IMG/VR virus record: IMGVR_UViG_3300025767_000015
Span: 1-61,065 of that record
DNA: 61,065 bases
Origin: a virus
Reading direction: 5' to 3' (one strand)
This document shows positions 22,123 through 47,417 of this stretch, one piece after another; the stretch's first letter is position 1; each line of letters opens with the position of its first letter. A program made the position numbers and the translations under genes. The notes beneath the pieces were generated by a model, which did not search any database, was not told the DNA's origin, and worked only from the letters and a program-made list of their open reading frames with translations.

Positions 22123-22278
22123 TTATTCTTCCTCAAAAACATTAATACGTAATGTTAGTATACCTAAGAATACTTGATAAGTAGTCCACGGTATTTCTTC
22201 ATTAGCCCTTAAAGCCTCAAAGCCAATAGCTAACCTATCATGAGGCCAGTGAAATATAAGTTCTAATGTCCAGTTCAT
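22123..22278 (-). CDS. small hypothetical protein after PhoH, 51 aa
   Basis: ATG 22278-22276 overlaps the PhoH stop by one base; stop 22125-22123. The product begins MNWTLELIFHWPHDRLAIGF and ends TLRINVFEEE: an amphipathic beta-alpha pattern with no membrane span. No family recognised. Coupling to PhoH and the following terminator support it. Confidence 0.55.
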   Translation of the reverse strand: MNWTLELIFHWPHDRLAIGFEALRANEEIPWTTYQVFLGILTLRINVFEEE

Positions 22279-22964
22279 TATCTATAATCTTCGTACACTT
22301 TAAGTACAGGTTCAACAATTTCATGACGATGGTTTGTCTTAAGAGTAATAACTTTAAAGCCTTTAACCTGAGCTTCTAATGTATATAGAAAGCCAAAGCC
22401 AGAATCTTTTTTATTACGTAGATCTATCTGAGCTTTATCACCACATATAACCATAGTACTACCTTTACCTAGACGGCCAAGCATCATTTCCATTTGATTC
22501 ATAGTAACGTTTTGAGCTTCATCTAATATGATAAGAGCATCAGTAAACGTTCTACCCCTCATGAATGCAAACGGTACAATTTCTATAAGGCCTTCTTCAA
22601 CACACTTGTCAATCTTAACTTTATCATATAGTAAGTACAAGTTATGGTATATAGGAGCAAGCCACGGATCCATCTTTTCCTTGATATCTCCAGGAAGGAA
22701 ACCGATGTCTTCTTTGGCAACTGTTGGTCTGGTAATGATAATCTTTTCAATTTGCTTTGTAAATAAGAGATCCAACCCAGTTTGCACTGCCACCAGAGTT
22801 TTCCCACTTCCTGCCATACCCTGTAAGACAGTGATTGGGTTTTCAAGTATTTCTGCTTTTGCAAGTTTCTGCTCTTCATTGAGACTTATATTAAATTTAA
22901 TAGGCTTCTTAGGTCTTCTCTTTGCTTTAAATACCTCATCGTTGTGAGATCTAGCTGCTGCCAT
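22278..22964 (-). CDS. PhoH-like ATPase
   Basis: 228 residues, the PhoH/RNase-associated superfamily 1-like NTPase: Walker A LQGMAGSGKTLVAV (47-60), TRPTV (78-82), Walker B ALIILDEAQN (143-152), MLGRLGKGSTMVICGDKAQIDL (161-182) and NHRHEIV (211-217). Basic N-terminus (VFKAKRRPKK). PhoH is common in phages and linked to RNA metabolism and phosphate stress, though its function in infection is unsettled. Starts 2 bp downstream of the coiled-coil gene's stop, in the same operon as the two-component genes. Confidence 0.9.
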   Translation of the reverse strand: MAAARSHNDEVFKAKRRPKKPIKFNISLNEEQKLAKAEILENPITVLQGMAGSGKTLVAVQTGLDLLFTKQIEKIIITRPTVAKEDIGFLPGDIKEKMDPWLAPIYHNLYLLYDKVKIDKCVEEGLIEIVPFAFMRGRTFTDALIILDEAQNVTMNQMEMMLGRLGKGSTMVICGDKAQIDLRNKKDSGFGFLYTLEAQVKGFKVITLKTNHRHEIVEPVLKVYEDYR

Positions 22965-22966
22965 AA

Positions 22967-23533
22967 TTAATCTTTTTCTGTAGCATACTTGACACCCATA
23001 ATGGTACCAACTATACTGAATGAATTAGTTAACAATATACCAAATAAATTTGACCATGTACTTTCTATTATCTTAGAATCATACCCTTTAGCAAGTATAA
23101 ACAAATACAATACTGTAGTAAGTAATCCTACACCAACAATAATACCCAATGCTAATTTTACTATAATAGAGATCAACTCAAACTGAGTCTTTTTTTGCAT
23201 GACCTCTAAGTCATTCAATGCTTCATCCCGTAAGTTCTCAGCTTCTTTTTTAGAGTCTTCCAACTCTTTCATTTTATCTTCAAGATCTAAAAGCAAATTT
23301 TTATTTAAAATGTTTGCTGCTTCTAATTCTTTATTCTGAGTTTGAACTTGTTTAGTTATATCTAAACGCTTCCTCCTTTGAGATAAATCTTTCTTCTTAC
23401 ACTCTTCAATATAATCCTTAACTTCAGGATCAGAAGTCTTAGCCAACAACTTAACAAAGCTTCCTTCTATAAAAACTTTCTTAGCTTTAGCTTTCTTAAT
23501 GGCTTCTTTAATAGTGTCTTTAGAACTTATCAC
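22967..23533 (-). CDS. coiled-coil, two-span membrane protein linked to response regulator
   Basis: 188 residues. Residues 1-60 are basic and helical; about 60-118 form a heptad coiled coil (KQVQTQNKELEAANILNKNL onward) like the signalling helices of histidine kinases; two membrane spans follow at about 120-148 (IIVKLALGIIVGVGLLTTVLYLFILA) and 161-180, ending KYATEKD. No kinase or receiver domain. Overlaps the response-regulator gene by 4 nt (ATGA). A membrane output or scaffold partner of the receiver is the simplest reading of context; a holin-like role is an alternative. Confidence 0.65.
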   Translation of the reverse strand: MISSKDTIKEAIKKAKAKKVFIEGSFVKLLAKTSDPEVKDYIEECKKKDLSQRRKRLDITKQVQTQNKELEAANILNKNLLLDLEDKMKELEDSKKEAENLRDEALNDLEVMQKKTQFELISIIVKLALGIIVGVGLLTTVLYLFILAKGYDSKIIESTWSNLFGILLTNSFSIVGTIMGVKYATEKD

Positions 23534-23964
23534 CTATATACTTTAAACGGATTAGTTTTATTGACATAACCTTGATAGTCTTTATTAAACTCTTCTAGTC
23601 TTGGTTCAATGTCATCAGATTTAATAATCCAAAACTGTGCACCTACGGCTTTAGCTTTTTCAATTTCCCCGCTATCACTGCTGCTAGAAATAATGCCAAT
23701 AACACAACCATTTCCATAATCTTCATTTATTTTACGGATCATTTCTATACCATCAAAGGATGATCCTATTATATTTAAATCAACAAAAACACATTCAGGT
23801 CTTTCTTCACCGTTATCCGGGAACCAAGACTTAAACATTCTGTCAGCTTCATCAGAGCTGTCTAGTGATTCTATAGACAAGGCTATGTCTAACATGCTAC
23901 AGGCATCTTCAAATACCAGATGAAATAGGTTTTCATCATCTATTAGCATTAGTGTATCAATCAT
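23530..23964 (-). CDS. receiver-only response regulator (CheY/Spo0F-like)
   Basis: 144 residues, a single receiver domain and no output domain. LMLIDDEN gives the acidic pair D9/D10; VFVDLNIIGSSFDGIEMI gives the phosphoacceptor D62; GIISSSSDSGEI gives S93/S94 at the Ser/Thr switch; WIIKSDD gives K115, with Ser instead of the usual Pro after Lys. All four functional positions are present, so phosphotransfer should work. Overlaps both the histidine kinase gene and the coiled-coil gene by 4 nt. Output is presumably by protein-protein contact. Confidence 0.88.
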   Translation of the reverse strand: MIDTLMLIDDENLFHLVFEDACSMLDIALSIESLDSSDEADRMFKSWFPDNGEERPECVFVDLNIIGSSFDGIEMIRKINEDYGNGCVIGIISSSSDSGEIEKAKAVGAQFWIIKSDDIEPRLEEFNKDYQGYVNKTNPFKVYR

Positions 23965-24863
23965 ATCTCAATAATTATTTTAGTACCTCCCTCATCTCTT
24001 TTTTGAGCTCGTACATTAAATCCATGTTCTTTTAAAATTGCAATTGAGATATTAAGTCCCAATCCCGTACCACTTTCTTTTTGTCCTTCTTTTCTTACGT
24101 AAGGTTTACTGAGTTCTATAAACTCTTCTGAAGTCAAACCTCTACCATTATCTTCTATTAGGATACTTAAGCCTTCTGTAAAGCTATCTTTAATGCTAAT
24201 CTTTACATACTTCGTACCACTATCATTATACTTTAAACCATTCCGAATAAAGTTATCTATAGCTGTACATAGTAACGGCTCATTAATTTCAAAAGACACA
24301 TCTAAACTGTCATCAAGAACAACCTGATTCTTATATGCAGTCAGCTTAAGATAGTCTGACAAAATTTCTTTTATATTTTTTAATTCTTTATTTAACTGTG
24401 CATTCTCCTTTACGAGATTTGTAAATTCAAATACACCTGCGTATACTTTTTGAGCATGGTGTAACCCATCTGTAATTAATCTAAGAGGTGCACCTATCTT
24501 TAACTCCTTAATATCCTCATCTGTAAGCCTTCTATTAAGAGATTTAATCCCTCTTGGTAGATAAGTATTAATTCCACTATGCATGTCATGACGTATGATC
24601 TTTGCAGCATGTTCTAAATAGATGTTCTTCTTATTAAGATCCTTTCTAATCTCAGCTTTATTACTTAAGAACTCTTTTACTACCGTAAAAAACGGAGGCA
24701 TAAAGGCAATAACACTAAGCCACTCAAAGTAATGTGTAAACGTGCTGTGATGTATAACTTTAAAGACAACTAAACTTTTGAATACAAAAAATGTAACCAT
24801 AATTATAGTTGAACATAGTAGGCAAATTCTACTACGTAAAGATATACCAGCTAAAGCTCCCAC
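23961..24863 (-). CDS. membrane sensor histidine kinase
   Basis: 300 residues. Two hydrophobic spans (about 12-37 and 47-64) with almost no periplasmic loop, then a dimerisation helix with IIRHDMHSGIN (H92 or H95 as phospho-site), and a complete ATPase domain: N-box AIDNFIRNGLKYND (N204, N208), G1 EDNGRG (237-242), F-box KPYVRKEG (253-260), G2 GTGLGL (265-270). The short sensor suggests detection of membrane state or an internal signal. RHDMHSG differs from the common HELRTPL H-box. Its cognate regulator is the next gene. Nothing suggests decay. Confidence 0.9.
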   Translation of the reverse strand: MGALAGISLRSRICLLCSTIIMVTFFVFKSLVVFKVIHHSTFTHYFEWLSVIAFMPPFFTVVKEFLSNKAEIRKDLNKKNIYLEHAAKIIRHDMHSGINTYLPRGIKSLNRRLTDEDIKELKIGAPLRLITDGLHHAQKVYAGVFEFTNLVKENAQLNKELKNIKEILSDYLKLTAYKNQVVLDDSLDVSFEINEPLLCTAIDNFIRNGLKYNDSGTKYVKISIKDSFTEGLSILIEDNGRGLTSEEFIELSKPYVRKEGQKESGTGLGLNISIAILKEHGFNVRAQKRDEGGTKIIIEI

Positions 24864-25051
24864 TATAGCTTAGATTTCTTTAACCCTAGCTTTTCAAAAA
24901 GCCATTTGCTTGGACAAAACTTGGTCCATACGCCAACCTGAAGCATTGTAGAAACAAAAGCTACTAACCACCAAGACTCAATGAAGATTGCTGTAGTTAA
25001 AACTACAGACATCAATAAGTAAACGGCTCTAACAGAAGTCCAGTTTTTCAT
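24863..25051 (-). CDS. small DUF2892/YgaP-like membrane protein, 62 aa
   Basis: MKNWTSVRAVYLLMSVVLTT onward gives two spans (about 8-25 and 27-43) and the end KFCPSKWLFEKLGLKK, where CP-x-LxxxLG is typical of DUF2892 inner-membrane domains that often accompany rhodanese or sulphur-handling proteins. Starts in an ATGA overlap with the 41-aa gene and its stop overlaps the kinase start. May modulate the kinase, whose sensor is itself almost all membrane; that is inference from gene order. Confidence 0.7.
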   Translation of the reverse strand: MKNWTSVRAVYLLMSVVLTTAIFIESWWLVAFVSTMLQVGVWTKFCPSKWLFEKLGLKKSKL

Positions 25052-25173
25052 AAGTTTATTATTTGTGCTAATGCAATTTGAAATCTATACCACAATCGTA
25101 ATCTAAAAGAAAGATTTTTAAACTCTTTAGTTTTAAATAGATCTTCTAATTCTTTTACATCTTCTATTTTCAT
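25048..25173 (-). CDS. small hypothetical protein, 41 aa
   Basis: ATG 25173-25171 with a good ribosome-binding sequence (AGAGG, 1 bp before ATG) and stop 25050-25048 overlapping the next ATG. Charged N-terminal half (MKIEDVKELEDLFKTKEFKN) and amphipathic, basic C-terminal half (LRLWYRFQIALAQIINL). No membrane span long enough to be sure. Position between the DUF5675 gene and the signalling genes closes the only gap in this operon. Confidence 0.6.
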   Translation of the reverse strand: MKIEDVKELEDLFKTKEFKNLSFRLRLWYRFQIALAQIINL

Positions 25174-25183
25174 ACCTCTAGCT

Positions 25184-25654
25184 TTATACAGTATCGTAAT
25201 CTATATACTGAATAGTTACTTCTTCACCTTCTTCAAGTGCTTTAGCAATTGCAGGGTAAATTCTTTTATACGCCGTAGTACTTGCACCAATGAAACCATC
25301 ACTAGAGCCAAAATTCGTTTGTTGACTGCTACCAACAATGAGACACCCAGCAGTGTGTTCGTCAGTATTACCAGTATGAATAAGGATATACTCAAAGTTA
25401 GGCACATCACGTACCCATAACATTCCCTTGTGCATTTCCCCATATTTCTTTTCATACCTTCCATGAAAACCTCCTACCTTTCTAAGAGTGATTTTATATG
25501 TGCCAGCAGGAATTCGTGTTTCAGACATAACCTTTGTTTCTCTATACTCATCTTCAAGAGTGTAGCATAAAAACTTTCTTCCTTCTGTAACATCAAATAA
25601 AATACCGTTTGTGCTGTCGTCTTGACTGCTAATTCTTAATACTTCTAACTTCAT
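25184..25654 (-). CDS. DUF5675 protein, probable cell-wall enzyme
   Basis: 156 residues. The core IHTGNTDEHTAGCLIVG (about 92-108) resembles the L,D-transpeptidase active site (His ... Ser/Thr-x-GC), with H93, H100 and C104 as likely catalytic residues; RIPAGTYKITLRKVGGFHGRY and GMLWVRDVPNFEYI are typical DUF5675 flanks. Common in phages of Bacteroidota and likely to cut or remodel peptidoglycan as an endolysin. Sits directly after the holin-like gene with a 4-nt overlap, the classic lysis pairing. Confidence 0.75.
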   Translation of the reverse strand: MKLEVLRISSQDDSTNGILFDVTEGRKFLCYTLEDEYRETKVMSETRIPAGTYKITLRKVGGFHGRYEKKYGEMHKGMLWVRDVPNFEYILIHTGNTDEHTAGCLIVGSSQQTNFGSSDGFIGASTTAYKRIYPAIAKALEEGEEVTIQYIDYDTV

Positions 25655-25899
25655 TTTTTTGCAAACTTTTCAAGACCTGCAATACCAAATGAACCAAGTG
25701 TAATGATTACAAAAGAATTATAGATCCCTTCATTAATAACTAAATCTTTACCAAAGTAACCTGTAACCAAGTCAACTGTAGCAAAGACTACCATAACTGC
25801 AAAAGACATAAATCCAATGATGGTTTTTTCATTGTAATCATTTTCGTCTTTAAAGATGTCAGCAAACGCCATACACTTTAATTTTAATTTTTTAAACAT
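25651..25899 (-). CDS. holin-like two-span membrane protein
   Basis: 82 residues with two spans (about 27-47, IIGFMSFAVMVVFATVDLVTG, and 58-75) and a charged C-terminus KFAKK, the size and shape of a class II holin. A second in-frame ATG (M10, MAFADIFKDENDYNEK) could be the real start, giving 73 residues; dual starts are also common in holin/antiholin pairs. First gene of the 22.1-25.9 kb operon. Confidence 0.65.
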   Translation of the reverse strand: MFKKLKLKCMAFADIFKDENDYNEKTIIGFMSFAVMVVFATVDLVTGYFGKDLVINEGIYNSFVIITLGSFGIAGLEKFAKK

Positions 25900-31448: not shown

Positions 31449-34400
31449 TTAAGCTATATTACATTTTTTGATTGCATCTAAAACTTCCTCATCAGTGAGT
31501 ATAGTATTTTCTAATGCTTCTTCTTTAACTGCTAAATCAGATTTAGAACCCATTTCTATACCGTAGTCTCTGTGAACTTTAGGTGTAGCTGTAGGATCTA
31601 ATTCTACTATCTCACCAGACTTAGAAAACTTAATAACTAAACTAAGTGATTCTTCCGGATTAACCATAACTGTAGCAACATATCTAGAGTTCTCATCTGT
31701 AGTCACAGCTCCTGATAAATCATAAGTAAGATCTCCTATAGTAACTTTTGTTTTGCTTTTTGCACCTGGTTCTACTTCTCTTTGAACACCCAGGTAAGTT
31801 CTGGTTTCTTGAATTCTTTTAAACTTTGATAAGAAATCTTGAGCTATTAATTTCTTTTGTGAATCAGACATTTTAGTAAATGAACTTAATGCATTACTAG
31901 CACTAACAGCTAAGTCTCTGTCTAAAAGATAAGGCATTAAAGAACCTTCATAAGATTCAAAGTTATCTTGTATAGCTATTCTTTCTGACAATAATCTAAA
32001 GAACACTGCAGTTGCACCACCCCCTTGAGATAACTTACGGAGGTCTTCTTTATATTCAGCAACGTCTTCTATAGTGTAAGACATTCTTAGCCCAACAGCT
32101 GAGCCTTCAGTATAAACTCTGATCTTTTCTATTAAGTCACTATCTGCAGTAGATGTTGCTTCTTCTTTTACAGAATTAAATAAGGCTGCAATATTATAAT
32201 TACTATTAGCATTAAATAAAACATCTATAGACTTACTGCGTATTAAAGATCTATGGGTCACTTCTTCATCTGTGCTTTCTGGTCTACTACCTTTAATAAT
32301 AGCCTTTTGCATTTCATGAATAATAAAGTCACCTTGAAATCTAAAAGTAACTCCATTTTCTTTTTCATATGATTTAAAACTACTTTTCTTTTGGTCAAAA
32401 AACTTTTGCTCTAGTAATGCTGAGTTTATAAGTAGCGTATTAGAATCCTCAACAAAAACAACAGGAGTATCTATTTTACCAGTAAATTCTATATTGCTAT
32501 TATAAAATAGTTTTGATTTACCAGACTTAAGATCTTCAAACGTAGTAGTGTTTTGATTTTGATATAAATAAGATTTAAAATGACTATTCAACTTATTAAA
32601 TAAAGCAGAACGATTTTTCTTGCTCATATACATAAGCTGCTCTTTACCAAAAGTCTGATAATTTTCTGTAAATGAACTGTAATCAAAAGCACTTACAGGG
32701 AACCAGTCTTTAAGCATTGACACCATGTTTCTATTTATTCTTTCATAAATACCTTGAACAGAAGTATCAGATATAATAGCAGCTAGTGGACCTGTAAAAT
32801 CACTAAGATTGTCTAGCCCTTTAACAGTTTGAATTGAATCTTGAATACTAGCAGCTTTAACCGTATCTACCTTTGTAGCTTTAAGTAAACTATTAATCTG
32901 ATCAAGCATTGGTTTAGCTTGTAAATACATAGCGTATGCTAGCTCTCCATCTTTATCATTTAACAACTCTTCTGTAGTAGGAGCTGTATTACTCTGATTT
33001 AATATTGTTTTAGTCCACCTGTGAGCCCATACCCAATTTATATCTTCACGGAAGTTTATTTCTTTTAAAACTTGAAGTTCTGGTGAACTCATTCCTAGAA
33101 GAGGATCATCTAATAAAAATAGTGGATCTTTCTTTTCAGCCTTTAGCTCAAACAATCTCTTCATTAAAGGTGTGTTAAGCATTGCTACAGCATAGTCATA
33201 ATTAACACCAGCTGCAATCATACTTAATAAAACCGGAGTAGACTGATAGTTAGCACCAATATTAAATACCCAAGCACCTTTAGCAATATCTACAAAACCG
33301 TTAATCAATTGCTCTACAATAGAGGTCTTTAAATTCTGGCCCTCTAAATCTGTATTCTTACCTAAACCTTCTTTTGGTACAGGCAGCATTAGATCTTTTG
33401 TATTTAATTCAAATAAACCATTGTCTCTACCTTCTATTACTTTTGGTAAACTTTGATCTATTCTAGAAAGTAAGGAAATAATAACGTTGTTAGCAGCTAC
33501 AATACCTAGAGTACGCTTACCTACAGAGTTTTCTTTTAACTTTCTAACATTAAAGTTGTAATCTAAAGCAGTACCTACAGTAGCTTCATCAGCTGTAGCA
33601 GCTTTATTACGACCTGCTAGTGTATTGTAAGACTTAGAATTCTCTCTTACTTGGTTAACATCATTAGGTTTAATTAAGTTAAGGTAGTTAGATTTATCTA
33701 GTACTATGTCTGTAATAGACTGAATCATATCATTCTGAGCACCACCTTGACCTTGCTTATCTAAGCTTACTACATATTTAATTTCAGGAACTAAATTCTC
33801 TGCCATTAGTATATCAAGTATAGCCATGTCTTGACTATCTAACGTATATACCGTTTCACCTTCATACTCACTGTCAATACTTTTTTTCTCATTATCTTTA
33901 ATAAAGTCTATGACGGTATCAACAGTGTAAGAATTAATACCCGCTGCAGGATACTTTTTACTAAGCTTCTCTATTTGAGTAGGGCTTAAGTAACCTAAAT
34001 TTCTTTTAGAGATTCTATCTGTTTTCTGTGGTACAGTTGCTTTAACATTAATACGCGGATAGAACAAAGTAAGCTTATCAACGTCAAAATCACCACCTGA
34101 TTTAACTGGTAACTCTGATGGTACTACAATAGCAGAACCATTTGCAGGATCTAAAAATTCAACAATCTCTAGAACCTCCATAGAGTTATGACCCTGTACT
34201 GGAATACGTACACCAGTAATAGTAATCATTCTACGGTTGTTACCTTTACTTAACCAAGCTTCATCTTTAATTGCTTCGTTAAGTCTGGCCAAAGTCTTAA
34301 TAGGTTTACCTTTATAACTCATTGCTAGCAGCTTTACAAAATCTCCTTGTAATGCTATTTTAGCTTGAGCAGCTATAATCTTTTGGCTACCAGACTGATA

Positions 34401-37400
34401 CGTATAGAATCGTAAATCATTAGAATATCCTATAGACGGAGCATCTAAGTTTTCCATAAAAGCAGAAGATACTTGTACAAGTGCTTCACCTTTAAGTTTA
34501 GTTCTAACAAGTCTCTTGTTAAAGATATTGATAATAATAGTTTCTATTCTATCAGCATTAGGTAGAGCATTAATGTTACCACCATTCTGCAATAAAACAT
34601 CTACTGCTTCAATTTCTTCTTCACTAGCATCTCTTTTATTTAGATCTCTTTTAACACGCTCTACTACTTTTCTAATACTTTCTGGATTCCTTTCAGCAAA
34701 TACATCCTCAAGCTTCTTTAACTCTAGATTTAAGTAGTTAGCCATGCTATCTAAGTATCTTTCATAAGCTTCAGCTGCAACCTCTTTACCAGGAATTATT
34801 TGCCCATTCTCATAGATGCCAACAGGTAATAAGTTTCTTAACTGACTTGATGCTGTAGCTTTACTTTTAAATGTATCCTTTACAAGAGTTACATCTTTAA
34901 GATAATTAAAGTGTATAACATTAATATTGCTAGCAAAATCTGTAGCTATTTGACCCTCATCCTTTAATTTTCTAATAGATTGACCTTGATCATTAGTTTC
35001 AAATTCATAAGGTTGTACTTTTTCATGTACATTGTTAACCTTACTACCAGACTCAAATACTACATAGTCTACTTTTGACTTGACCATAGCATCATGAATA
35101 ACATCTGCGGCCTTTTTAGGTTGTCCTTTAGGTGTAGGTATGATAGGCTTAAGAGAGTACTTGTGAAGAGCTGTAGCGTGTGCTTTTTTACCAGCTATTT
35201 CTGCATTAAGAATAGGACCATAGTACTGATACTTTCTTACTGCAAAAAACTTTTTAGCTGCAATAGCATCTTCTATGGTAATCTCACCACCTTCAGCCGC
35301 AGCTTTTACAATCTTTAAATATAATGGTTCATGATTTTTCCAGTCCCAAGATTGTGATGCTATAGCTAACTGTCTATAAGAATCTAATGTTATAAATGCC
35401 TGAGCATCTGCTTCATTATAGTTATTCTTATAGTCATCTATCAATGCTTGAATCTTTTCTTTAGGTACATTGTTTTCTTCACCATACTTTATAAGAGTTT
35501 CTACAAAACTTGAAGAAAGAACACTGCTATCTTTAGAAACATTATTATCTAGATCAGTAAGAATAACAGTATTACCTGTACCATCATACTGTTTTGTTTC
35601 AGATTTCTTTAAACCTAAAACCTGTTCTGCATATTGATTACCTTGAGAATTAATAAACTCTTGAATGCTTTCACCAGTATCAAATAGTTTACCTGTAGAT
35701 GTTACGGCATAACGTTTAGTAAAATCATTAGCATCTTTAAACTGAGCTAAATCTCCTACAAATAGAGCAGCAATTTCTGAATTGATTAACCAGTTGTTAA
35801 TCATCATATTTCTAATAACTATCTCTACGTTTTCTCTTTGACTTAATTCAAGATCAGGTGCTACATCTTCATTAATAAGATTACTAATCTTATCGTAGTT
35901 TACTTCATTTAATAAAGCATCTACCTTTCCTTGAAAATATGCCTCTAAAGTATTTGCAAAAGCGTTTTCATTTTCTTTATACCAATCCTCAAAATTCTGA
36001 CCTTCTTCTATAAGTGCAGTTACTACCTGATCTTTAGATAGTAAACCTTCCACTTCATTAGAAAATATAGAGCTGAATAAACCAAGCTCTTTCCCTACTC
36101 TTTGAATATTAGTGTCTGCATCTTTATTGTTAAGAGCATTTTTAATATCTGCTTTTAACTTAGCTTTAAAAAATGATAAAGCAGGTTGAATGCTTTTTCT
36201 AGATGCTTTTATAAATAGTCCTTTTTTAGCACCTATTGCACCTGGTATTGTACCGTTTACATTAAGCATGTAAGATGTGCTCTTATCAGAAGCTCTAAAT
36301 TGTTCTGAGTAACCACTCAAAAACATAGAATGTAAATCTGATATAATCTTACTTGATGTAGTAAGGTTGGCATTTTTCTGAGCAGTTCTTTCTGTAAACA
36401 CTCCTAATGCACTTTGAATAACAAGCTCTACAGCTCTAGACTTAGGTCTAGCTCCATTAGGAAACATTGCCTTCATCCAAAAAGATGCTTCAACATAAGG
36501 ATTTGTTTTAGGATCTAAGTGAGATAAGGCTTTATTACTTTCAATCTCATCTTTAGTTTGCAATTGATTAATTGCTTTTACTACTTGAGATTGAGTACTA
36601 TTTAAACTTAAGTCATATACGTTCTTACCATCGGCTGCAATTTTTCTAGATATTGACATACCTGGAGTAAGACCTAATACGTAATTAAGTAAACTATTAA
36701 TAGTACCATATTGACCGCTATACTCTATACCCTTAGTTTTATTCTTTCTAGCCTTTCCTAATGTTTTAACAGGTTCTGTAATCTTTGTGGCTCCTTTCCC
36801 TAGTATAGGAATTAAGTTATCTTTTACATCAGCATAAAGAAGCTGAAAATTTGATACTACTTCAGGTCTACTTAAATAAGCATCTAACTCTAAAGTGTAC
36901 TGTAATGGTATACCTAAGTCTTGTATAAAAGCAAACAGTTTACCAGAACGCAATAAGTCTTCTTTTTCATACTTGCTAAGTACTTCCTTATAGTTAACAC
37001 CATTTGGGTTATCATTAGCAAAACGACCTTGAAGCTGCTTTTTAATTCTTGATGTATCTCCTTCTGGATTTTTAATAACAACCTTAACTGTACCGGCATC
37101 ATCAGTAGCAAACGTTTGCTTGTTAGCAATAAATGCTAAGTTAAAGGCTTGCCACAATTTACCACTAAGCAGTTGCTTAATAGGGTCACTACTATTAATA
37201 GCACCTATCTGATCTAGTATATGTTCATATACATTGTTATATCTGCGACCTGAATCTTTACGTTTTGTATTTTCTTCTCTTAATGCTGTAAGCTTATCAA
37301 AAAGTTCTTCTCTTGTAAACACATTAGCTAGACCTGTCTGTACATCATTATATACTTTACCGAAGCTGTAAATCTTTGGAAATCCAAATCTATCTCTAAC

Positions 37401-40400
37401 CACTTGACCATCTGCTGTTCTTTCAGGAACTGTAGATAAAAGCAATTTAACACGCTTATCCATTAGCTCTAACTGTGAAAACTCATTACCAGATTTATCA
37501 TAAGCCTCAAGAAGATCATCTAAAGTTTCTGCATCATCTAACTCAGAAGCTTCATCAGCATTTTCAATAGTCTGAGAAAATACAGACATTAATTCAGAAT
37601 TCTGTAAATGATAAGAGACAGTGCTAAAGCGTGACCCTGCTTGTTTAGTTTCTGAAACAGACCCATAACTTTCTATAGCATCTTCAAGAATGTTAATACT
37701 TTCTTGAAGCTCTAGCTGTTTAACTTGATCTTTTTCAGCTAATGTTAATTCATCTAGCTGTAATTCTAAATCAATCTTAGCAAGCTCTAAATTATCTTTT
37801 ACTTCTTCATATAGAAGCTCTATGTTGTTTAGATCTTCAAACAGTACATTAACATCAGCATCCATCTTTTCCATTATAGAAACTATAGCACTATCCATTG
37901 ATTCTTTTACAAACCTTGAATTAGCAGATGAAATAGTAGTACCGTCTTTTAACTCTATACCTTTATTTAAAGTAATAAGCATAGCATTGTCCCATTCAGC
38001 ACCACGCTCTTGTACTATATTACCAGACTTAAGGTTCTCATACATTTCTGTTACCGCATCATAAGCTTGAGTACGTTCTAAACCTTTAATGATAAACGAT
38101 CTGTTACCAAAGAGAGCCTTAAGCATCTCTAGTATCTTTTTAAAGATAGAGTTAATAGCTTTTGATTTACCTAACACACGTTTACCATCTGATAACATGT
38201 ACTTACGGAAATCTTCAGCAAGCTCCTCTTCAATTTCTAAGAAAGTTTTCTTACCTAATATCTTAGACGCTTCATTATATAAGCTTACCTTTTCTTCTTT
38301 AGTAAGTACTAGTTGTGAAAACCCGTGCCATGCTTCATGATATGCATCAGTAAAGTTAGACCCAGCATAAAGAGTAATACCATTACTACCCCAGGTTGCT
38401 AAAGCTCCTGAGTTAGCAATACCAAACGCTCTGTTAAGAGGAACAAACTTAGATAAAGGATGAGTAGACCACCATTCCTCTGCGGCCTTAATTTCTTCTG
38501 CAGTAGCAGCATTACTTAAGCTATCTAACTTATTTAATAAGTCTCCTCTTGAAATGCGTCTTTCAGATCTTTCTTGTATTTCTGCACGCTTAGCTCTTAA
38601 CTTTTCTATTCTAGCTTGCTTTTCTTTTTTCTGCTTATCTGTAAGAGATTGTTGAGGAGCTTCTGTCTTTTTAGTCTGACCAAAGCCTAGCATCAATTGA
38701 GTACTATCTTCTTTAGCCTGTTTAACTTTTGCTTTAGTAACCTGTCTAACTGCAGAAAAGTCTCTAGCATATTGTATATCAGCATGAGCTGTTTGCAATC
38801 CCTGACCACCTTTAGAATTAAAGTACGTAGCAGCATTTAATCTATAATACTTGCGTATAAACTCCTCTCTTGATATAGATTGAAATTCTATAGAATCATT
38901 TACTACTTTAGGTATCGTAATATTATCTAATGTAATAACGTTATTTAGAAAGATCTTAGAAATAATATCTGAAACCTCTGCTTCAGTTAACTCATCTACA
39001 AATTTATTTTTACGGCTAAAAAATAATCTACCGTCTTTAATGCTGACATGAGGAGCATTTTCTGATTGCAACCAACCATTCAAAGCATCTACTACAAGTT
39101 CAGGATCTAGAGCACTGCTAACTAACTTAACAGTGTCAGTGAAAAGAGTGTCTCCTTCTATCTTATTAGATATAAAGCCTATTGCATTAGATTCAACTAA
39201 AGCTAAATAATCATAACCATCAATGTCTAAGAACATTCTTGACATCATGATAGGATTACCTTTAGCATCTACACCAGGAACTTCTTTTACAACTCCATCT
39301 TCATCAGTAACCCTTTTAACAATCTGCTCATCTTTAATTACAATTTTATTAATTGATAAAGGACCTGATTGATTTTCTAAATAAGCAATCTGTTGTTTAT
39401 TAACCCCATCTCCAGCATATCCTAAATATCCTCCAGTAATCTGTAAAGTATACTCTGTACTAGGATCATTCATTATAGTAGAGTAAACATCAGCATGCAA
39501 AAGAGCAGCTTCCTCACTTGCTTTTTGAACCTTACTAGGTCTTCTAAACCAAGAGTGAGCTAAATAATCACCGCCTTCAGTTACTTCACCTTCTGAATTT
39601 ATTCTGACAGGCTTTCCTGTTTGTTTATCTATGTATAGAATTACAACTGCTGTAGAATATAGATCTGCTCCGTTTTCAGGCTTTACCTTATCTTTTTCAG
39701 ATATAGTACTACCATGTACTAAACGTAACTCATACTTGGAATTACTTATAGATACTTTTTGACGTGCTTGTCCAGGAGATAATGAAGACTTGTTAGGCAC
39801 TTCTTCCCTAACAATACCTCTTCTAAACTGACCATTAGCTTTTACAATAGGATCATCTATGTATTGACCCGCAGTTCCTTTAGCCGTAGATACTGGAGAA
39901 AAGCTGCTTTCTTTATTTGCAGTAGTGTCTGGATCTAAACTACTACTAACCTCATAATTTTGAGGTGCTTGCTCTTCTCTTTTTCCTTTATTATTTTGTT
40001 CTTCTTGCTGACGCTTTTGTGCTTCTTTGGCTCTTCTCTTTTTTTCTTCTTCAGATACAAATTCTTCACCAGTCTTTGTAACTCCTAGATATTCAATAAG
40101 TTTCTCAGCACTGTTTTTTCCGTCAAGTAATTCTTCTAAATCCGCTATTTCTGCAATGCTAGGTTTTAAAAGCTTTTTAAATCTTTTACTAGTAAATGCA
40201 ATTGTTAAAAGCTGAGGAAAACTTTTAACAAACGTAAAAGCCTTTTCAGGTGTCATCAACAGAGTACCGTCTTTTGTTTGAATAGATAATAAATCCTTAT
40301 ATGAAGCTTTCATAAAAGGCTTCAAAGAAAAGTTTACATCCTTATCAAGATAAACTTCAGTCAATTTTTTATTAGTGTAATTGACTGCCTGTGTTACATT

Positions 40401-40427
40401 CTTTTGGCTAAAGCTACAGTACTTCAT
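31449..40427 (-). CDS. giant virion RNA polymerase with zincin module, 2992 aa
   Basis: Catalytic motif GGDFDVDKLTLFY with D2113, D2115 and D2117 as the metal triad, preceded by the double-psi barrel block RIPVQGHNSMEVLEIV; this is the pattern of the single-chain virion polymerase of crAss-like phages (phi14:2 gp66). Residues 1-650 carry a Glu/Lys/Gln-rich linker (about 130-170). A zincin site TDAYHEAWHGFSQ (H697, E698, H701) with downstream EEELAEDFRKYM is followed by an amphipathic block like that in the 1818-aa protein. Expected to be packaged, injected, and to transcribe early genes. Longer than phi14:2 gp66 as I recall it. Confidence 0.88.
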   Translation of the reverse strand: MKYCSFSQKNVTQAVNYTNKKLTEVYLDKDVNFSLKPFMKASYKDLLSIQTKDGTLLMTPEKAFTFVKSFPQLLTIAFTSKRFKKLLKPSIAEIADLEELLDGKNSAEKLIEYLGVTKTGEEFVSEEEKKRRAKEAQKRQQEEQNNKGKREEQAPQNYEVSSSLDPDTTANKESSFSPVSTAKGTAGQYIDDPIVKANGQFRRGIVREEVPNKSSLSPGQARQKVSISNSKYELRLVHGSTISEKDKVKPENGADLYSTAVVILYIDKQTGKPVRINSEGEVTEGGDYLAHSWFRRPSKVQKASEEAALLHADVYSTIMNDPSTEYTLQITGGYLGYAGDGVNKQQIAYLENQSGPLSINKIVIKDEQIVKRVTDEDGVVKEVPGVDAKGNPIMMSRMFLDIDGYDYLALVESNAIGFISNKIEGDTLFTDTVKLVSSALDPELVVDALNGWLQSENAPHVSIKDGRLFFSRKNKFVDELTEAEVSDIISKIFLNNVITLDNITIPKVVNDSIEFQSISREEFIRKYYRLNAATYFNSKGGQGLQTAHADIQYARDFSAVRQVTKAKVKQAKEDSTQLMLGFGQTKKTEAPQQSLTDKQKKEKQARIEKLRAKRAEIQERSERRISRGDLLNKLDSLSNAATAEEIKAAEEWWSTHPLSKFVPLNRAFGIANSGALATWGSNGITLYAGSNFTDAYHEAWHGFSQLVLTKEEKVSLYNEASKILGKKTFLEIEEELAEDFRKYMLSDGKRVLGKSKAINSIFKKILEMLKALFGNRSFIIKGLERTQAYDAVTEMYENLKSGNIVQERGAEWDNAMLITLNKGIELKDGTTISSANSRFVKESMDSAIVSIMEKMDADVNVLFEDLNNIELLYEEVKDNLELAKIDLELQLDELTLAEKDQVKQLELQESINILEDAIESYGSVSETKQAGSRFSTVSYHLQNSELMSVFSQTIENADEASELDDAETLDDLLEAYDKSGNEFSQLELMDKRVKLLLSTVPERTADGQVVRDRFGFPKIYSFGKVYNDVQTGLANVFTREELFDKLTALREENTKRKDSGRRYNNVYEHILDQIGAINSSDPIKQLLSGKLWQAFNLAFIANKQTFATDDAGTVKVVIKNPEGDTSRIKKQLQGRFANDNPNGVNYKEVLSKYEKEDLLRSGKLFAFIQDLGIPLQYTLELDAYLSRPEVVSNFQLLYADVKDNLIPILGKGATKITEPVKTLGKARKNKTKGIEYSGQYGTINSLLNYVLGLTPGMSISRKIAADGKNVYDLSLNSTQSQVVKAINQLQTKDEIESNKALSHLDPKTNPYVEASFWMKAMFPNGARPKSRAVELVIQSALGVFTERTAQKNANLTTSSKIISDLHSMFLSGYSEQFRASDKSTSYMLNVNGTIPGAIGAKKGLFIKASRKSIQPALSFFKAKLKADIKNALNNKDADTNIQRVGKELGLFSSIFSNEVEGLLSKDQVVTALIEEGQNFEDWYKENENAFANTLEAYFQGKVDALLNEVNYDKISNLINEDVAPDLELSQRENVEIVIRNMMINNWLINSEIAALFVGDLAQFKDANDFTKRYAVTSTGKLFDTGESIQEFINSQGNQYAEQVLGLKKSETKQYDGTGNTVILTDLDNNVSKDSSVLSSSFVETLIKYGEENNVPKEKIQALIDDYKNNYNEADAQAFITLDSYRQLAIASQSWDWKNHEPLYLKIVKAAAEGGEITIEDAIAAKKFFAVRKYQYYGPILNAEIAGKKAHATALHKYSLKPIIPTPKGQPKKAADVIHDAMVKSKVDYVVFESGSKVNNVHEKVQPYEFETNDQGQSIRKLKDEGQIATDFASNINVIHFNYLKDVTLVKDTFKSKATASSQLRNLLPVGIYENGQIIPGKEVAAEAYERYLDSMANYLNLELKKLEDVFAERNPESIRKVVERVKRDLNKRDASEEEIEAVDVLLQNGGNINALPNADRIETIIINIFNKRLVRTKLKGEALVQVSSAFMENLDAPSIGYSNDLRFYTYQSGSQKIIAAQAKIALQGDFVKLLAMSYKGKPIKTLARLNEAIKDEAWLSKGNNRRMITITGVRIPVQGHNSMEVLEIVEFLDPANGSAIVVPSELPVKSGGDFDVDKLTLFYPRINVKATVPQKTDRISKRNLGYLSPTQIEKLSKKYPAAGINSYTVDTVIDFIKDNEKKSIDSEYEGETVYTLDSQDMAILDILMAENLVPEIKYVVSLDKQGQGGAQNDMIQSITDIVLDKSNYLNLIKPNDVNQVRENSKSYNTLAGRNKAATADEATVGTALDYNFNVRKLKENSVGKRTLGIVAANNVIISLLSRIDQSLPKVIEGRDNGLFELNTKDLMLPVPKEGLGKNTDLEGQNLKTSIVEQLINGFVDIAKGAWVFNIGANYQSTPVLLSMIAAGVNYDYAVAMLNTPLMKRLFELKAEKKDPLFLLDDPLLGMSSPELQVLKEINFREDINWVWAHRWTKTILNQSNTAPTTEELLNDKDGELAYAMYLQAKPMLDQINSLLKATKVDTVKAASIQDSIQTVKGLDNLSDFTGPLAAIISDTSVQGIYERINRNMVSMLKDWFPVSAFDYSSFTENYQTFGKEQLMYMSKKNRSALFNKLNSHFKSYLYQNQNTTTFEDLKSGKSKLFYNSNIEFTGKIDTPVVFVEDSNTLLINSALLEQKFFDQKKSSFKSYEKENGVTFRFQGDFIIHEMQKAIIKGSRPESTDEEVTHRSLIRSKSIDVLFNANSNYNIAALFNSVKEEATSTADSDLIEKIRVYTEGSAVGLRMSYTIEDVAEYKEDLRKLSQGGGATAVFFRLLSERIAIQDNFESYEGSLMPYLLDRDLAVSASNALSSFTKMSDSQKKLIAQDFLSKFKRIQETRTYLGVQREVEPGAKSKTKVTIGDLTYDLSGAVTTDENSRYVATVMVNPEESLSLVIKFSKSGEIVELDPTATPKVHRDYGIEMGSKSDLAVKEEALENTILTDEEVLDAIKKCNIA

Positions 40428-40444
40428 TTTTATACTTTTATGAA

Positions 40445-43400
40445 TTAACAGATATCATCTGCAAATGGATCATCTACTGGATTATTGTCATAACTAGAAA
40501 GAATGCTTTCTGCATTGCTTTCTACAGTATCTGATACATTTTCTAAATCTTCATTTACTTCTTCAGTTACCTCTGGTACAGTTTGTTCAGTAGCATTAGC
40601 ATTTAAACTAGCCATCTTATTACTAATCATATCTCGTAATACTTTCTTTTGCTCATCTGTTAAAATAGATGAAGAGTCAACATCTAAACGTCTAGCTTCC
40701 AAGGTAGTAATTTTCTTGCTTCTATTGATTCTATTACTAAGAGTTTTAAATTCTTTTTCAGCTTCTTTACGCTCCTCTTCACTAATATCAGAGAACCCTT
40801 CTTCTATAGTTTCTCCTATATTTTCTACAACAACTTCTTCTACTTCTCTAAAACCTTTAGCAGCATCTCTAGCTTTTTGAAGTTCTACCTCTGTAACACT
40901 TCTACCAGGACCATTCATAAACTGAGAAAGAGTAGAAATACGTTCTTTTGGATTTGCAGTTCTATATTTAGTATACTCCTCATTAAGCTTAGATAAAAGA
41001 CCCTTTAGTACTTCTGGCTGATCTTTAAATTCTTTTCTGATCTGAGCTTCTTCATAAGTTATTTGCTCAGGAGTTTCTTCTTCTACAGCTTCTACTTCTG
41101 GAGTTTCCTCTACTTCTTCTACAGTTTCTTCTGCTTCACCTTTAAGTTTTTCTTCTGCGTCTTTCTTAGCTTCTTCTTGAAGTAAGTTGTAACGATCAAA
41201 AATATCTTGAATCTTATCCCATGTTTCAGTGCCTTCTATTACTTGAGATTCTAAGTTTACATCATCACTATTAGGATCTGCTAAAAACTTAGTAGGAATA
41301 ATACCTTCATTTACAAACTTAAACAAGCTGCTTTCAGATTCTGGTATACTTGCATCAGTAATACTTTCATTAAATATTACCACTCCTATATCAGCAAGGT
41401 CTTCTAAAACATCTTTACGATCTTGAACAGTAGCACCATTTAATGCTGCAAACTGATCTGCAAGATTTACTGCAAATAAATCAAACAACTGCTTATTAAT
41501 CTCTAAGAAAAACTTACGGAAATTTTCTGGATCAGATAAATTTGTTACAGCCTGGTTAAAAGCTGTATTCATTTCTTCTACTCTATTGTAGTCTACAATC
41601 TGCTTAAGAAGCTTTTCTGCTTTAAGACCATCTACAGACGAGTTAGTCTTATTACCATAGTAGTTAAGTACATTTTTAAGAGCCAAAGATAATTCCTTGT
41701 ACCCTTCAACTTTATTTAAATCTGCTCTACCTTTTACAGCTTCAAGATTTGTTTTAAATTGATTAAAGGCTTTTTCATATGTACTAAAGACAGCTTCTTT
41801 TTTAGCTACATCTGATAACTGTTGTTCTGCTGCTTTTATAGCTTTGTCATTAGAAACTTTATCTTCTTTAGTTTCTGTTTCTGCACCCTTTAAATTAGCA
41901 ACTTGAGCAGTAAGAGCAGCTTTTTCATCAGCTAATCTTTTTAATTCACTTTCCAAAGTAAAACTTAAACCCTTGTTATCAGCACTAATGTTAAATAGTG
42001 GGCTGACATCTGAAGCTAGCATTGAAGCTACAGCAGGATCATCAGATGCGGCTTCTGCTATTTCAGAAAGTCTTTCTAGTGATCTCTTATCATTGTGGTA
42101 AGAGTATACTAGTGTTTGTTTAGCAAGTTCAAAAGCCCCTGCAGCTATCTGCATTTCTTTTCTTTCTTCACCTGTAATATTAGGATCTAATAAAGCATCT
42201 GCATAATAATTACCGTAAGTCTTATCTACATAAGCTTGTGTACCTACAATGCTTTTAGTTCTTTTAGTTATATCATCAATAACTTTTTCTGCAGCAGCTC
42301 TGTTTTCTGCAGGTATAGCTTGTAATAACTCTTCATCAGATAGCTGTTTATGATTATCTAAAGCCTCTAAGAAGTTATCTACAATCCCTTTTTGAGATAG
42401 TGCCGATATGTAGGTAAATAAAGATTCATCTTTAATAGATTCAAATGCCATACGGTCATCTAACTCTAAAGCTATACTCATACCTTTTTGTGCATCAGCT
42501 TGAGCTTTTAATGTAACCAGTTCTGGAGCTAATGCTTCAATTACGTTAGCACCTTCAGAGTTAATTAAGTTTACAAGATCAGAATTAAAGTTTTTATCTT
42601 TTTCTAAAGATGCTTCATATTTTTCTAAAGCACTTTTATTAACCTTACGGTATCCAGCTTCTATAGCTTCTCTACCAGCTTGAATAACATTACCTCCACC
42701 AGATATTATACCACCACCTAAGAAACCTCCTAAAAATGCTTCTAAACCTTGTTGTGAAACTTGTGCTGCAAGACCGCTAGCTATTTCTTTTTTAGCTAGC
42801 TTCATTCCTGCTATTTCAGGACGCAAATAAGTTTTAGCAAAATAATCTTCAATAGCTTTAGATGCAGACTCTTGATAAATTTCTTGAACCCCTTCACTAA
42901 TATTTGCAGAGAAATATGAGCCTAGACTACCTAATGCATATCTAGCCATGTCTTTATCAGTAAACATTTTTACAAATGCTTGCCCCCTACTTAATTCTTG
43001 AGCTGTTACATTCAAGCCTACACCAGCTGCTTTACCTCCAGCTTTTTCTCCAGCCTTTGTTGTAATAGTACTGTAAACACTTTTAGATTTACCTGCACGC
43101 ACTTTCATAGTCTTAGCAGCATTACCATAAGGTAGTGCCAAACTATTAAATGTTATATTATTAGTAAGATATATAAATGGAAGGTTAGCCCAGTAATCTA
43201 CATTACCAGCTTCTGTAGCTTGGTTATCCATTGATGCTAGTATTTCACCTGATGGCATAAAACCATTAGCAGCAACATACTCACTTACTAATCTATCTTT
43301 AATACCCTGTCTTACACCTGATGCTTCAACCATTGACTCATCATTAGATAGTCCCGCAATTCTTAAATCACGATAGACAGCACCAAATCCTTTTATACTT

Positions 43401-44323
43401 GCCAAACTAGCAACAGCATCTGCAGCCTTACCTGCAGAAGTAGCAGCCTTAGATTGAGTAGACGCTCCTTTAATAAAGTTATAAGTATTAGGAGTAAATG
43501 CTCTAGTTAAAGCGTTTCCTGTATCTGCAACTCTATTATAAATTTGTTTAGCAGAAAGTGCATCTCTAAGCTTGTCTACATTTTTAAGTGTTTCAAAAGT
43601 TCCTTTAACAGCTTTACCAAAACCTTTTACAGTTCTGACACCAGCCATAGTTAATGAACCACCCAAAGTTTCTGGTGCAACTGCTGCCAACAATAAATCT
43701 TCTGCAGCAATAGCTCCTATAATACCTAAAGTATAATTCATATTATACCCAAGGTTAACAGCCATCTGACCTAATCCTCCTCTAGTAGACATTGCCATTT
43801 TAGCTGAGTGAGTCATAAGCTCCCCCTTATCATACGCAATATTACTAGGATCAAGTGTACCAGAATTACCAAACATTCTTAGACCCCCTCCAAAATTATC
43901 TAAGAATACTTCACCCATTACAGGGAAAAAGTATTTAGAAGCCCTAACAAAGTCTCCAGTCCACGCTGTATTAGCGTTATAAAAACTTTCATTATCTTTT
44001 AAAGTAGAAAACCCAAGCCTTGAATAAGCTGGGTGAGAAGTATATCTTTCAACATTCTGAGCCTCCTTATTAAATGCTAAAGTCTTTTGCTTAGCATAAG
44101 TAGGAGCCATATCTATCACAGGTTTTTGAGTACCTGCTGGCATGTTAGCACTAATATTTAATAAGCTTCCTGTATTAGTAGGAGCCACATTATCAAATGC
44201 TCTAACATTAAAGTTTATGTCTTCTGCTTTTTGCTGAGTACCCTGCAATAAGGAAGATTGAAACTTAGCTGCATCTTTGTAAGCATTATTACCAAATGAC
44301 AAAGACTTATCCTGATCTTCCAT
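40445..44323 (-). CDS. large virion internal/ejection protein, 1292 aa
   Basis: Starts MEDQDKSLSFGNNAYKDAAK. Hydrophobic glycine-rich segments near residues 195-230 (GIIGAIAAEDLLLAAV) and 525-545 (EAFLGGFLGGGIISGGG) look membrane-inserting, and a Glu-rich region lies around 1050-1100 (EETVEEVEETPEVEAVEEE). Long helices between. Membrane-active stretches in a giant virion protein next to the polymerase fit an ejection or cargo protein that forms a channel for polymerase entry. No enzymatic motif. Sequence family not otherwise recognised. Confidence 0.7.
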   Translation of the reverse strand: MEDQDKSLSFGNNAYKDAAKFQSSLLQGTQQKAEDINFNVRAFDNVAPTNTGSLLNISANMPAGTQKPVIDMAPTYAKQKTLAFNKEAQNVERYTSHPAYSRLGFSTLKDNESFYNANTAWTGDFVRASKYFFPVMGEVFLDNFGGGLRMFGNSGTLDPSNIAYDKGELMTHSAKMAMSTRGGLGQMAVNLGYNMNYTLGIIGAIAAEDLLLAAVAPETLGGSLTMAGVRTVKGFGKAVKGTFETLKNVDKLRDALSAKQIYNRVADTGNALTRAFTPNTYNFIKGASTQSKAATSAGKAADAVASLASIKGFGAVYRDLRIAGLSNDESMVEASGVRQGIKDRLVSEYVAANGFMPSGEILASMDNQATEAGNVDYWANLPFIYLTNNITFNSLALPYGNAAKTMKVRAGKSKSVYSTITTKAGEKAGGKAAGVGLNVTAQELSRGQAFVKMFTDKDMARYALGSLGSYFSANISEGVQEIYQESASKAIEDYFAKTYLRPEIAGMKLAKKEIASGLAAQVSQQGLEAFLGGFLGGGIISGGGNVIQAGREAIEAGYRKVNKSALEKYEASLEKDKNFNSDLVNLINSEGANVIEALAPELVTLKAQADAQKGMSIALELDDRMAFESIKDESLFTYISALSQKGIVDNFLEALDNHKQLSDEELLQAIPAENRAAAEKVIDDITKRTKSIVGTQAYVDKTYGNYYADALLDPNITGEERKEMQIAAGAFELAKQTLVYSYHNDKRSLERLSEIAEAASDDPAVASMLASDVSPLFNISADNKGLSFTLESELKRLADEKAALTAQVANLKGAETETKEDKVSNDKAIKAAEQQLSDVAKKEAVFSTYEKAFNQFKTNLEAVKGRADLNKVEGYKELSLALKNVLNYYGNKTNSSVDGLKAEKLLKQIVDYNRVEEMNTAFNQAVTNLSDPENFRKFFLEINKQLFDLFAVNLADQFAALNGATVQDRKDVLEDLADIGVVIFNESITDASIPESESSLFKFVNEGIIPTKFLADPNSDDVNLESQVIEGTETWDKIQDIFDRYNLLQEEAKKDAEEKLKGEAEETVEEVEETPEVEAVEEETPEQITYEEAQIRKEFKDQPEVLKGLLSKLNEEYTKYRTANPKERISTLSQFMNGPGRSVTEVELQKARDAAKGFREVEEVVVENIGETIEEGFSDISEEERKEAEKEFKTLSNRINRSKKITTLEARRLDVDSSSILTDEQKKVLRDMISNKMASLNANATEQTVPEVTEEVNEDLENVSDTVESNAESILSSYDNNPVDDPFADDIC

Positions 44324-47300: not shown

Positions 47301-47417
47301 ACCTTGATTGTAACGTTCTTGTTTAACGCTTAACCAATTTTCCATCAATTCAAAATTTGGAGTATAAAGCTCCAAGTCTGGAATGTTACCTTGTATATTG
47401 GGAATAAATGTTGCCAT
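44328..47417 (-). CDS. large virion internal protein, 1029 aa
   Basis: Starts MATFIPNIQGNIPDLELYTP, conserved-looking for cargo proteins, then mostly helical (QERYNQGRMAVSQAYSTIANL) with a beta-richer C-terminal region. No membrane span and no catalytic motif. Starts immediately downstream of a promoter-like element (47427-47447), so the set from here to the zincin protein may form one late transcript. Role as capsid or tail cargo is inferred from size, composition and position. Confidence 0.65.
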   Translation of the reverse strand: MATFIPNIQGNIPDLELYTPNFELMENWLSVKQERYNQGRMAVSQAYSTIANLPLTDESNIAKKDQFIKDAQNQIQKLASVDLSLEENVIAARQIFNPLLQDENIMADATFTSKATALMQANANFKNSSDSEDRARYNANNNIFAQLKLEEFKMSDAETRKSMASQSLSFVDNINLFERYLEIAKKNGFSLKRESKPTDAAGNLMPFMVTETNGKEITPLAYSRLANVFNNDPYIQEYYQQQGYIQVQSELQELIPQVGYQAALAQVTDKYQSTIDPSVAANKKAKLEEARTVNNAKKRVYESKATKVGIIPGSKEHMEYLKITAEEAGFSQEHKSIVDESKQVSIAIQDISSLYRTAGKAAYETDLNAAATDYAMQDYSIGYKATPNYGKWVDARKDKSTGSGSDSPSVSQGLLPGSDTAPITYISDTDTDVTVVETNENALKQKQVKLNKDLVDLIGTYTKLYNTKHPDEMTTEKIPNTGIRDVTSASAWWERTSESELAGQETQRVLDFFNKLDKEGILASEYPQVKQALNKWKGKEAAYIKAESTVAQSYSNSFKNVEAEIALNSNDAMASTAPLVRYMYDSETGIESKKQFEKNVLDAYKAGDIDPIVAEQVLNLSNTPIKPSFNDILEASEKLAKADYMNSLPPDEKQVSIKNDRGEIIGYRTAWENLSDNKRSELLRPYIKDARENPQSIVGLEAREGIKSTRRLGKFYDQALTLVEDFYKRDPASQSAVSMLNPTAVILDGAPDAIEIISSNLDVAPNSALPNKTAQVEQQVMLATLNRYLESGDIVISSGEFNPEKAEAFKKGKIKGDKNQERMSYSVFSRFYQDIKVKNDAKTSTATSDPRATFKVLSAVDFGNDQSGAIVEINYNTGWLQGVSSTADDPGFKFSVDGNNSKATLFIPEGVAGMMNLPVSEDIENFTALTTNGIETIQLNNNAVRIEYDAENKLLNYTSTQKEFNPKTGKYRTVTYESPSSLVANPINYRYLSQNLYNELMLFEANQEEAERLYNEDNGAVYSTDELNR

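Follow-up and report, generated by a model that had tools for sequence, protein, structure and literature searches.

The window analyzed here, a single IMG/VR virus record of 61,065 bases taken at its full length, carries on its minus strand a cassette of four genes, which encode a small membrane hairpin (TM62), a histidine kinase (HK), a response regulator (RR), and a coiled-coil membrane protein (CC) (Table 1). An initial annotation had placed the kinase and the regulator as a two-component pair in a gapless phage operon. Both reading frames lie at the coordinates it gave, with the catalytic residues that it named, and "gapless" is essentially right, as the 132-nt gap upstream of TM62 is occupied by a 41-aa open reading frame; HK and RR overlap by 4 nt (23961-23964), as do RR and CC (23530-23533). 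The pair does belong to a phage operon, but it is part of a larger cassette that went unnoticed and that also includes TM62 and CC. We regard the observation as confirmed and as larger than first described: as far as sequence can tell, this is a phage signaling cassette with a dedicated membrane partner.

Table 1 Features of the cassette and of its neighbors in the window
Feature	Position	Strand	Description
PhoH	22278..22964	-	Same operon, past CC
CC	22967..23533	-	188 aa: N-domain, coiled coil, two C-terminal membrane helices
RR	23530..23964	-	144-aa receiver-only response regulator, phospho-acceptor D62
HK	23961..24863	-	300-aa membrane histidine kinase
TM62	24863..25051	-	62-aa membrane hairpin with invariant CPS
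41-aa open reading frame	25048..25173	-	No known function; read from sequence
DUF5675 protein	25184..25654	-	PF18925, 4.7e-27; Tlde1_dom, 0.0044
82-aa small membrane protein	25651..25899	-	Holin-like in size and position

The virion proteins encoded in the window are similar to their counterparts in Cellulophaga phage phi17:2 and in Flavobacterium phages. The window is also syntenic with a contig of 103,840 bp (G538), whose large proteins are homologs, by phmmer, of gp105, gp104, and gp102 of phage phi14:2 (Crassvirales); from their position and size we read these three as terminase, portal, and capsid. Because the syntenic contig has these phi14:2 homologs, assignment of the window phage to the crAss-like phages, already presumed in the initial annotation, is supported at a level above family. 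Synteny with a phage contig of this length rules out contamination by host DNA. The window phage also encodes three giant late proteins of 2992, 1292, and 1029 aa (31449-40427, 40445-44323, and 44328-47417), for which a PHROG search returned zero matches.

HK matches the Pfam model HATPase_c (PF02518; E = 1.8e-15) and has all of the N, G1, F, and G2 boxes, together with a phospho-acceptor histidine, H92, in the dimerization helix. The best Foldseek match of its AlphaFold2 model (pLDDT 80.8) is the DHp-CA portion of HK853 (4jav; 245 columns, E = 4e-10). H92, which lies in the H-box motif RHDMHSGIN, is invariant across 31 aligned relatives, as are N204/N208, the DNGRG box, and GLGLNI, so that the H-box and the four further boxes are intact, as had been described. 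Of the profiles proposed for recognizing the pair, HATPase_c and Response_reg were matched by the kinase and the regulator, respectively, but no HisKA-type dimerization model in Pfam matched HK. Best matches and fold are nevertheless those of histidine kinases, which rejects another kind of GHKL protein (gyrase, MutL, or HSP90). At about residues 9 to 65, HK has hydrophobic helices separated by a short loop; in the structure model the predicted helices span residues 9 to 33 and 41 to 112 and the loop comprises some 7 residues (34 to 40). Two membrane helices with a short extracytoplasmic loop are the build of intramembrane-sensing kinases, which often need an accessory membrane protein. A hydropathy scan found an N-terminal membrane segment in nearly all kinases of the family. 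Given this build, and given the FAD-sensor-like PAS inserts of relatives described below, HK looks designed for sensing the state of the membrane or the cell, a role that the initial annotation had suggested. Near the C terminus, two kinases of the family (L019:2176-3285 and L033:881-1996) carry an extra segment of ~60 residues, inserted after the G2 box and before the last strand.

The RR of the window matches the Pfam model Response_reg with an E value of 4.9e-7, barely above the curated cutoff, and all 40 aligned RR relatives match it as well (best, 8e-12). D9, D10, D62, S93, S94, and K115, which the initial annotation had singled out correctly, are identical in 79 of 79 distinct sequences and make up the acidic pair, the phospho-acceptor aspartate, the S/T switch, and the lysine of a receiver. 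With neither a DNA-binding nor an enzymatic output, RR is a stand-alone receiver; HK and RR together have the sequence hallmarks of a two-component system. Purifying selection acts on both genes (dN/dS = 0.091 for RR and 0.20 for HK), and this, along with the residue conservation, excludes chance open reading frames or decaying genes. Pairwise distances of HK and RR are correlated (r = 0.63, Mantel P = 0.001). On these measures, HK and RR are confirmed as a genuine pair that appears to be maintained by selection.

CC consists of a conserved N-domain (EG..LK ... Q.QN), a coiled coil, and a pair of membrane helices at the C terminus (STWSNLFGILLTNSFSIVGTIMGVKYA). Its second membrane helix is the most conserved segment of the protein (mean conservation, 0.94) and is nearly invariant, and CC adjoins RR in 111 of 113 loci. 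Homology of CC to holins is unsupported by profile comparison: hhalign gave a probability of ~1% against both neighboring holin-like families, and no Pfam holin model matched. A structure search of the PDB with the CC model (pTM 0.33) was empty. On the other side of the pair, TM62 abuts or overlaps HK and is present upstream of roughly 70% of the kinases examined. In 14 of 38 members it has weak similarity to YgaP-like membrane segments (best, 2.2e-5), and its adjacency makes it a probable accessory of HK. The Bacteroidota-type promoter motif TAnnTTTG was found upstream of TM62 in 4 of 68 cases, below the count in shuffled sequences (10), and no internal promoter is shown.

More than 500 stretches in IMG/VR encode relatives of this family. 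Confirmed relatives number 530 for a single RR query and 155 for HK, at least 569 for CC, and at least 537 for an RR alignment query. Far from being absent in close relatives, the pair recurs as HK-RR-CC across 113 non-redundant loci, on one strand and in constant order (HK in 107, RR in 110, and CC in 111), with junctions that mostly overlap or abut and with TM62 usually preceding the three genes. Carriers can otherwise be very dissimilar: the content that three contigs (G543, G545, and G548) have in common with the window is essentially the cassette, plus PhoH in two of them, where G545 was compared across 60 kb of its 187 kb. Because such carriers share little except the cassette, yet the identity of RR averages 80% across the family (HK, 68%; CC, 59%), we read its spread as modular exchange under strong constraint. 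The collection of cultured phages searched holds no relative of the cassette; there, the HK query finds generic kinases of at most ~32% identity, and the RR and CC queries find none. The plasmids searched hold no relative either. The initial statement that phages rarely carry a full pair therefore stands for the cultured-phage collection but not for uncultured viromes, where the family exceeds 500 matches. Among the proteins of uncultured phages in UniProt/BFVD, A0A8D9FRZ3, A0A6J5L941, and A0A6J5L9N4 are kinases 45 to 62% identical to HK; they are annotated just as histidine kinase or BaeS, and we found no account of the cassette, the receiver, or CC in connection with them. A search of the open-access literature found no paper on a kinase-receiver cassette of crAss-like or other phages.

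Occurrence in otherwise unlike phages is also what would be expected of exchangeable accessory functions, and the coiled coil and two membrane helices of CC have the build of a membrane effector. The cassette might thus serve superinfection exclusion or anti-defense, with CC blocking incoming phage DNA or countering an abortive defense once the kinase senses perturbation of the membrane. However, PADLOC gives no match at a meaningful E value, so the cassette was rejected as a defense system, and in the window phage it lies among late-type genes and not in an obvious early region. We consider this explanation rather improbable.

Cellular genomes were scanned with near-exact peptides, from which remote relatives may escape. 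Among 84,980 species genomes there were two matches, one in a phage-like contig (L146) and one in a Bacteroidetes chromosome contig (L147); the single match among 395 sampled Bacteroidota genomes comes from the same genome as the latter. A bacterial reservoir of the cassette was rejected, this chromosomal copy being the sole cellular one in the near-exact-peptide scans of species genomes, Bacteroidota, and plasmids. In the tree it clusters with two further loci that branch deeply, although the midpoint root has a support of 0.63. The bacterial locus (L147:5709-9090) encodes, in order, a triple-PAS kinase, an RR that is 64% identical to the phage RR, and a 349-aa protein whose N terminus is the CC N-domain (E = 6.8e-21, profile positions 3 to 109), fused to HisKA-HATPase. 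Because the CC N-domain is joined here to a second histidine kinase, CC is likely to be the output of RR. From this fusion, seen in one bacterial genome, we infer that the N-domain may be a modular connector through which RR reaches different outputs, namely another kinase in the bacterium and a membrane-helix pair in the phages; CC is most simply read in this way.

The same bacterial locus, with RR between two kinases in a phosphorelay-like arrangement, lends something to a host-directed role, in which HK and RR would tap host two-component systems as phosphate donor or sink and reprogram host expression, CC serving as a membrane anchor. A stand-alone receiver could act as a phosphate shuttle, and RR is far above HK and CC in conservation, as if held by a conserved partner. 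However, the cassette nearly always supplies its own kinase and CC, and no close cellular relative of RR was found in the 395 sampled Bacteroidota genomes except in the bacterial locus itself. In addition, the membrane helix is the most conserved part of CC, which a mere anchor would not require. We judge a host-directed role to be unlikely. Because HK and RR come with their own CC and TM62 in phages that have little else in common, a self-contained circuit is more likely than the rewiring of host phosphorelays suggested in the initial annotation.

About half of the kinases of the family have a long N-terminal part, and 17 of 20 long kinases scanned contain a PAS domain between the membrane part and the H-box; the HK of the window has no PAS domain. 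PAS inserts of two long kinase variants were compared with the PDB (best entries, 3ewk, 8dik, and 2gj3). The first matches MmoS (5e-21), Aer (1e-15), and NifL (3e-11) best, and MmoS and Aer are also the best matches of the second, so that both variants are closest to the FAD-PAS redox sensors. Because the key FAD-contact residues of Aer, as judged by eye, are not all present in the inserts, FAD binding is no more than a candidate property. Redox-sensor-like inserts would suit a cassette that senses redox or energy state and, instead of lysis, tunes the supply of nucleotides (ribonucleotide reductase) or another part of late metabolism. In 22 of 113 loci (e.g., L153), a 569-aa protein resembling the ribonucleotide reductase large subunit by eye is encoded nearby, ~4 to 5 kb upstream, often with a small-subunit-like gene. 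At that typical distance, though, such genes are not close companions, none is near the cassette in the window or at most loci, and the constant partner of the cassette is a membrane protein. We therefore give metabolic timing only a slim chance.

The surroundings of the cassette point instead toward the cell envelope. In the window, it lies downstream of the DUF5675 protein and the 82-aa small membrane protein. An H..GC motif in the DUF5675 protein, together with its weak match to Tlde1 (0.0044), suggests an L,D-transpeptidase-like wall enzyme and makes a peptidoglycan-active lysis enzyme probable. The 82-aa protein had zero matches in Pfam and PHROG; 48 of the 113 loci have a relative of it close to the cassette. 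Cell-wall enzymes of four Pfam families (Amidase_2, GH19, M15_3, and DUF5675) occur beside the cassette, a Phage_holin_4_1-like gene (weak match, E = 0.0014) is near 49 loci, and an endolysin-type cluster or a Phage_holin_4_1-like gene lies within 6 kb at 67 of 113 loci. On long contigs, a recognized lysin is located within 3 kb of RR in 9 of 19 cases versus 1.67 expected (P = 5e-6); when near relatives are grouped by hand, the figure is about 6 of 13 (P = 5e-4). Among the long contigs that have a recognized lysin, however, about half carry the cassette far from it, at distances of up to ~70 kb (one contig-end case excluded). Single-linkage grouping by common flanking genes places an endolysin nearby in 4 of 19 groups, with 85 loci falling into one heterogeneous group. 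Because other contigs have the cassette elsewhere and independent groups are few, we take lysis as the best single lead to the role of the cassette, short of proof. Cellulophaga phage phi14:2, a cultured member of the Crassvirales, encodes a TM-coiled coil-PAS protein (gp089; L216:20355-20984) beside a GH19 endolysin; this neighborhood and that of the receiver of Alteromonas phage V22, considered below, point in the same direction as the lysis link.

The reading that we favor, and to which we give about an even chance, is a self-contained phage signaling cassette in which TM62 and HK would sense the membrane or the redox/energy state and RR would act via CC at the membrane, on the timing of lysis or on another late membrane event. 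In the chain of events that we infer, which takes in phosphotransfer, RR-CC binding, redox sensing, and lysis control, TM62 and the two-helix HK would read host membrane state or redox/energy supply, with the added PAS domain doing the sensing in about half of the family. HK would autophosphorylate at H92 and hand the phosphate to D62 of RR. RR, having neither a DNA-binding nor an enzymatic output, would then alter its binding to the N-domain or coiled coil of CC, and this binding would switch the conserved pair of membrane helices in CC. Most likely, the circuit would serve to control when the envelope is disrupted (lysis), or else some other late membrane event. More tentatively, we put forward a phage-specific system, exchanged among otherwise unlike tailed phages, in which the kinase and the stand-alone receiver would directly gate CC as a membrane effector and so time the breach of the envelope by host redox or membrane state, a two-component control of lysis without transcription.

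The accumulation of holin is generally considered to determine when most phages lyse their hosts. Our analysis suggests that in phages a sensing circuit of bacterial type acts directly on the host membrane, perhaps for timing lysis, and there is a realistic chance that the cassette gives phages a new means of controlling what happens at the envelope. If so, many phages, the crAss-like ones included, would measure host physiology and answer it posttranslationally. The parts of the cassette are small and their soluble domains are at hand, which makes phosphotransfer, RR-CC binding, and membrane effects directly testable.

Several known systems resemble the cassette in part. HK853-RR468 of Thermotoga maritima has the same DHp-CA architecture and the canonical receiver residues found in the phage RR; the phage pair differs from it in being phage-borne, in its RHDMHSGIN H-box without a HisKA Pfam match, in its fixed membrane partner, and in the lack of a DNA-binding output. 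The FAD-PAS redox sensors Aer, NifL, and MmoS are the best matches of the PAS inserts in two phage kinase variants, but the phage PAS sits in a membrane kinase and the HK of the window is without one. LiaFSR and BceRS comprise intramembrane-sensing kinases with accessory membrane proteins, and the phage HK is like them in its two membrane helices, very short loop, and neighboring small membrane protein; unlike in those systems, TM62 is weakly YgaP-like rather than LiaF/BceB-like, and RR has no LuxR/OmpR output. LytR is a transcription regulator that binds DNA, in contrast to the phage RR, which has no output domain. The LytST-LrgAB system, outlined in PMC3507848 as bacterial two-component control of holin-like proteins, nevertheless parallels the cassette in tying a kinase/receiver system to holin-like membrane proteins. 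Among cultured phages, Alteromonas phage V22 (PMC7289586; MN877442) carries ORF30 (L235:25749-26198), annotated as a hybrid kinase-regulator although its 149 aa make up just a receiver, and flanked by a papain-like amidase/TM gene on one side and by spanin-like (by eye) and small TM genes on the other. It differs from our loci in having no cognate kinase or CC homolog near ORF30, and tblastn with RR misses ORF30; like them, it places a stand-alone phage receiver among lysis-type genes, and it offers this arrangement in a phage that is in culture.
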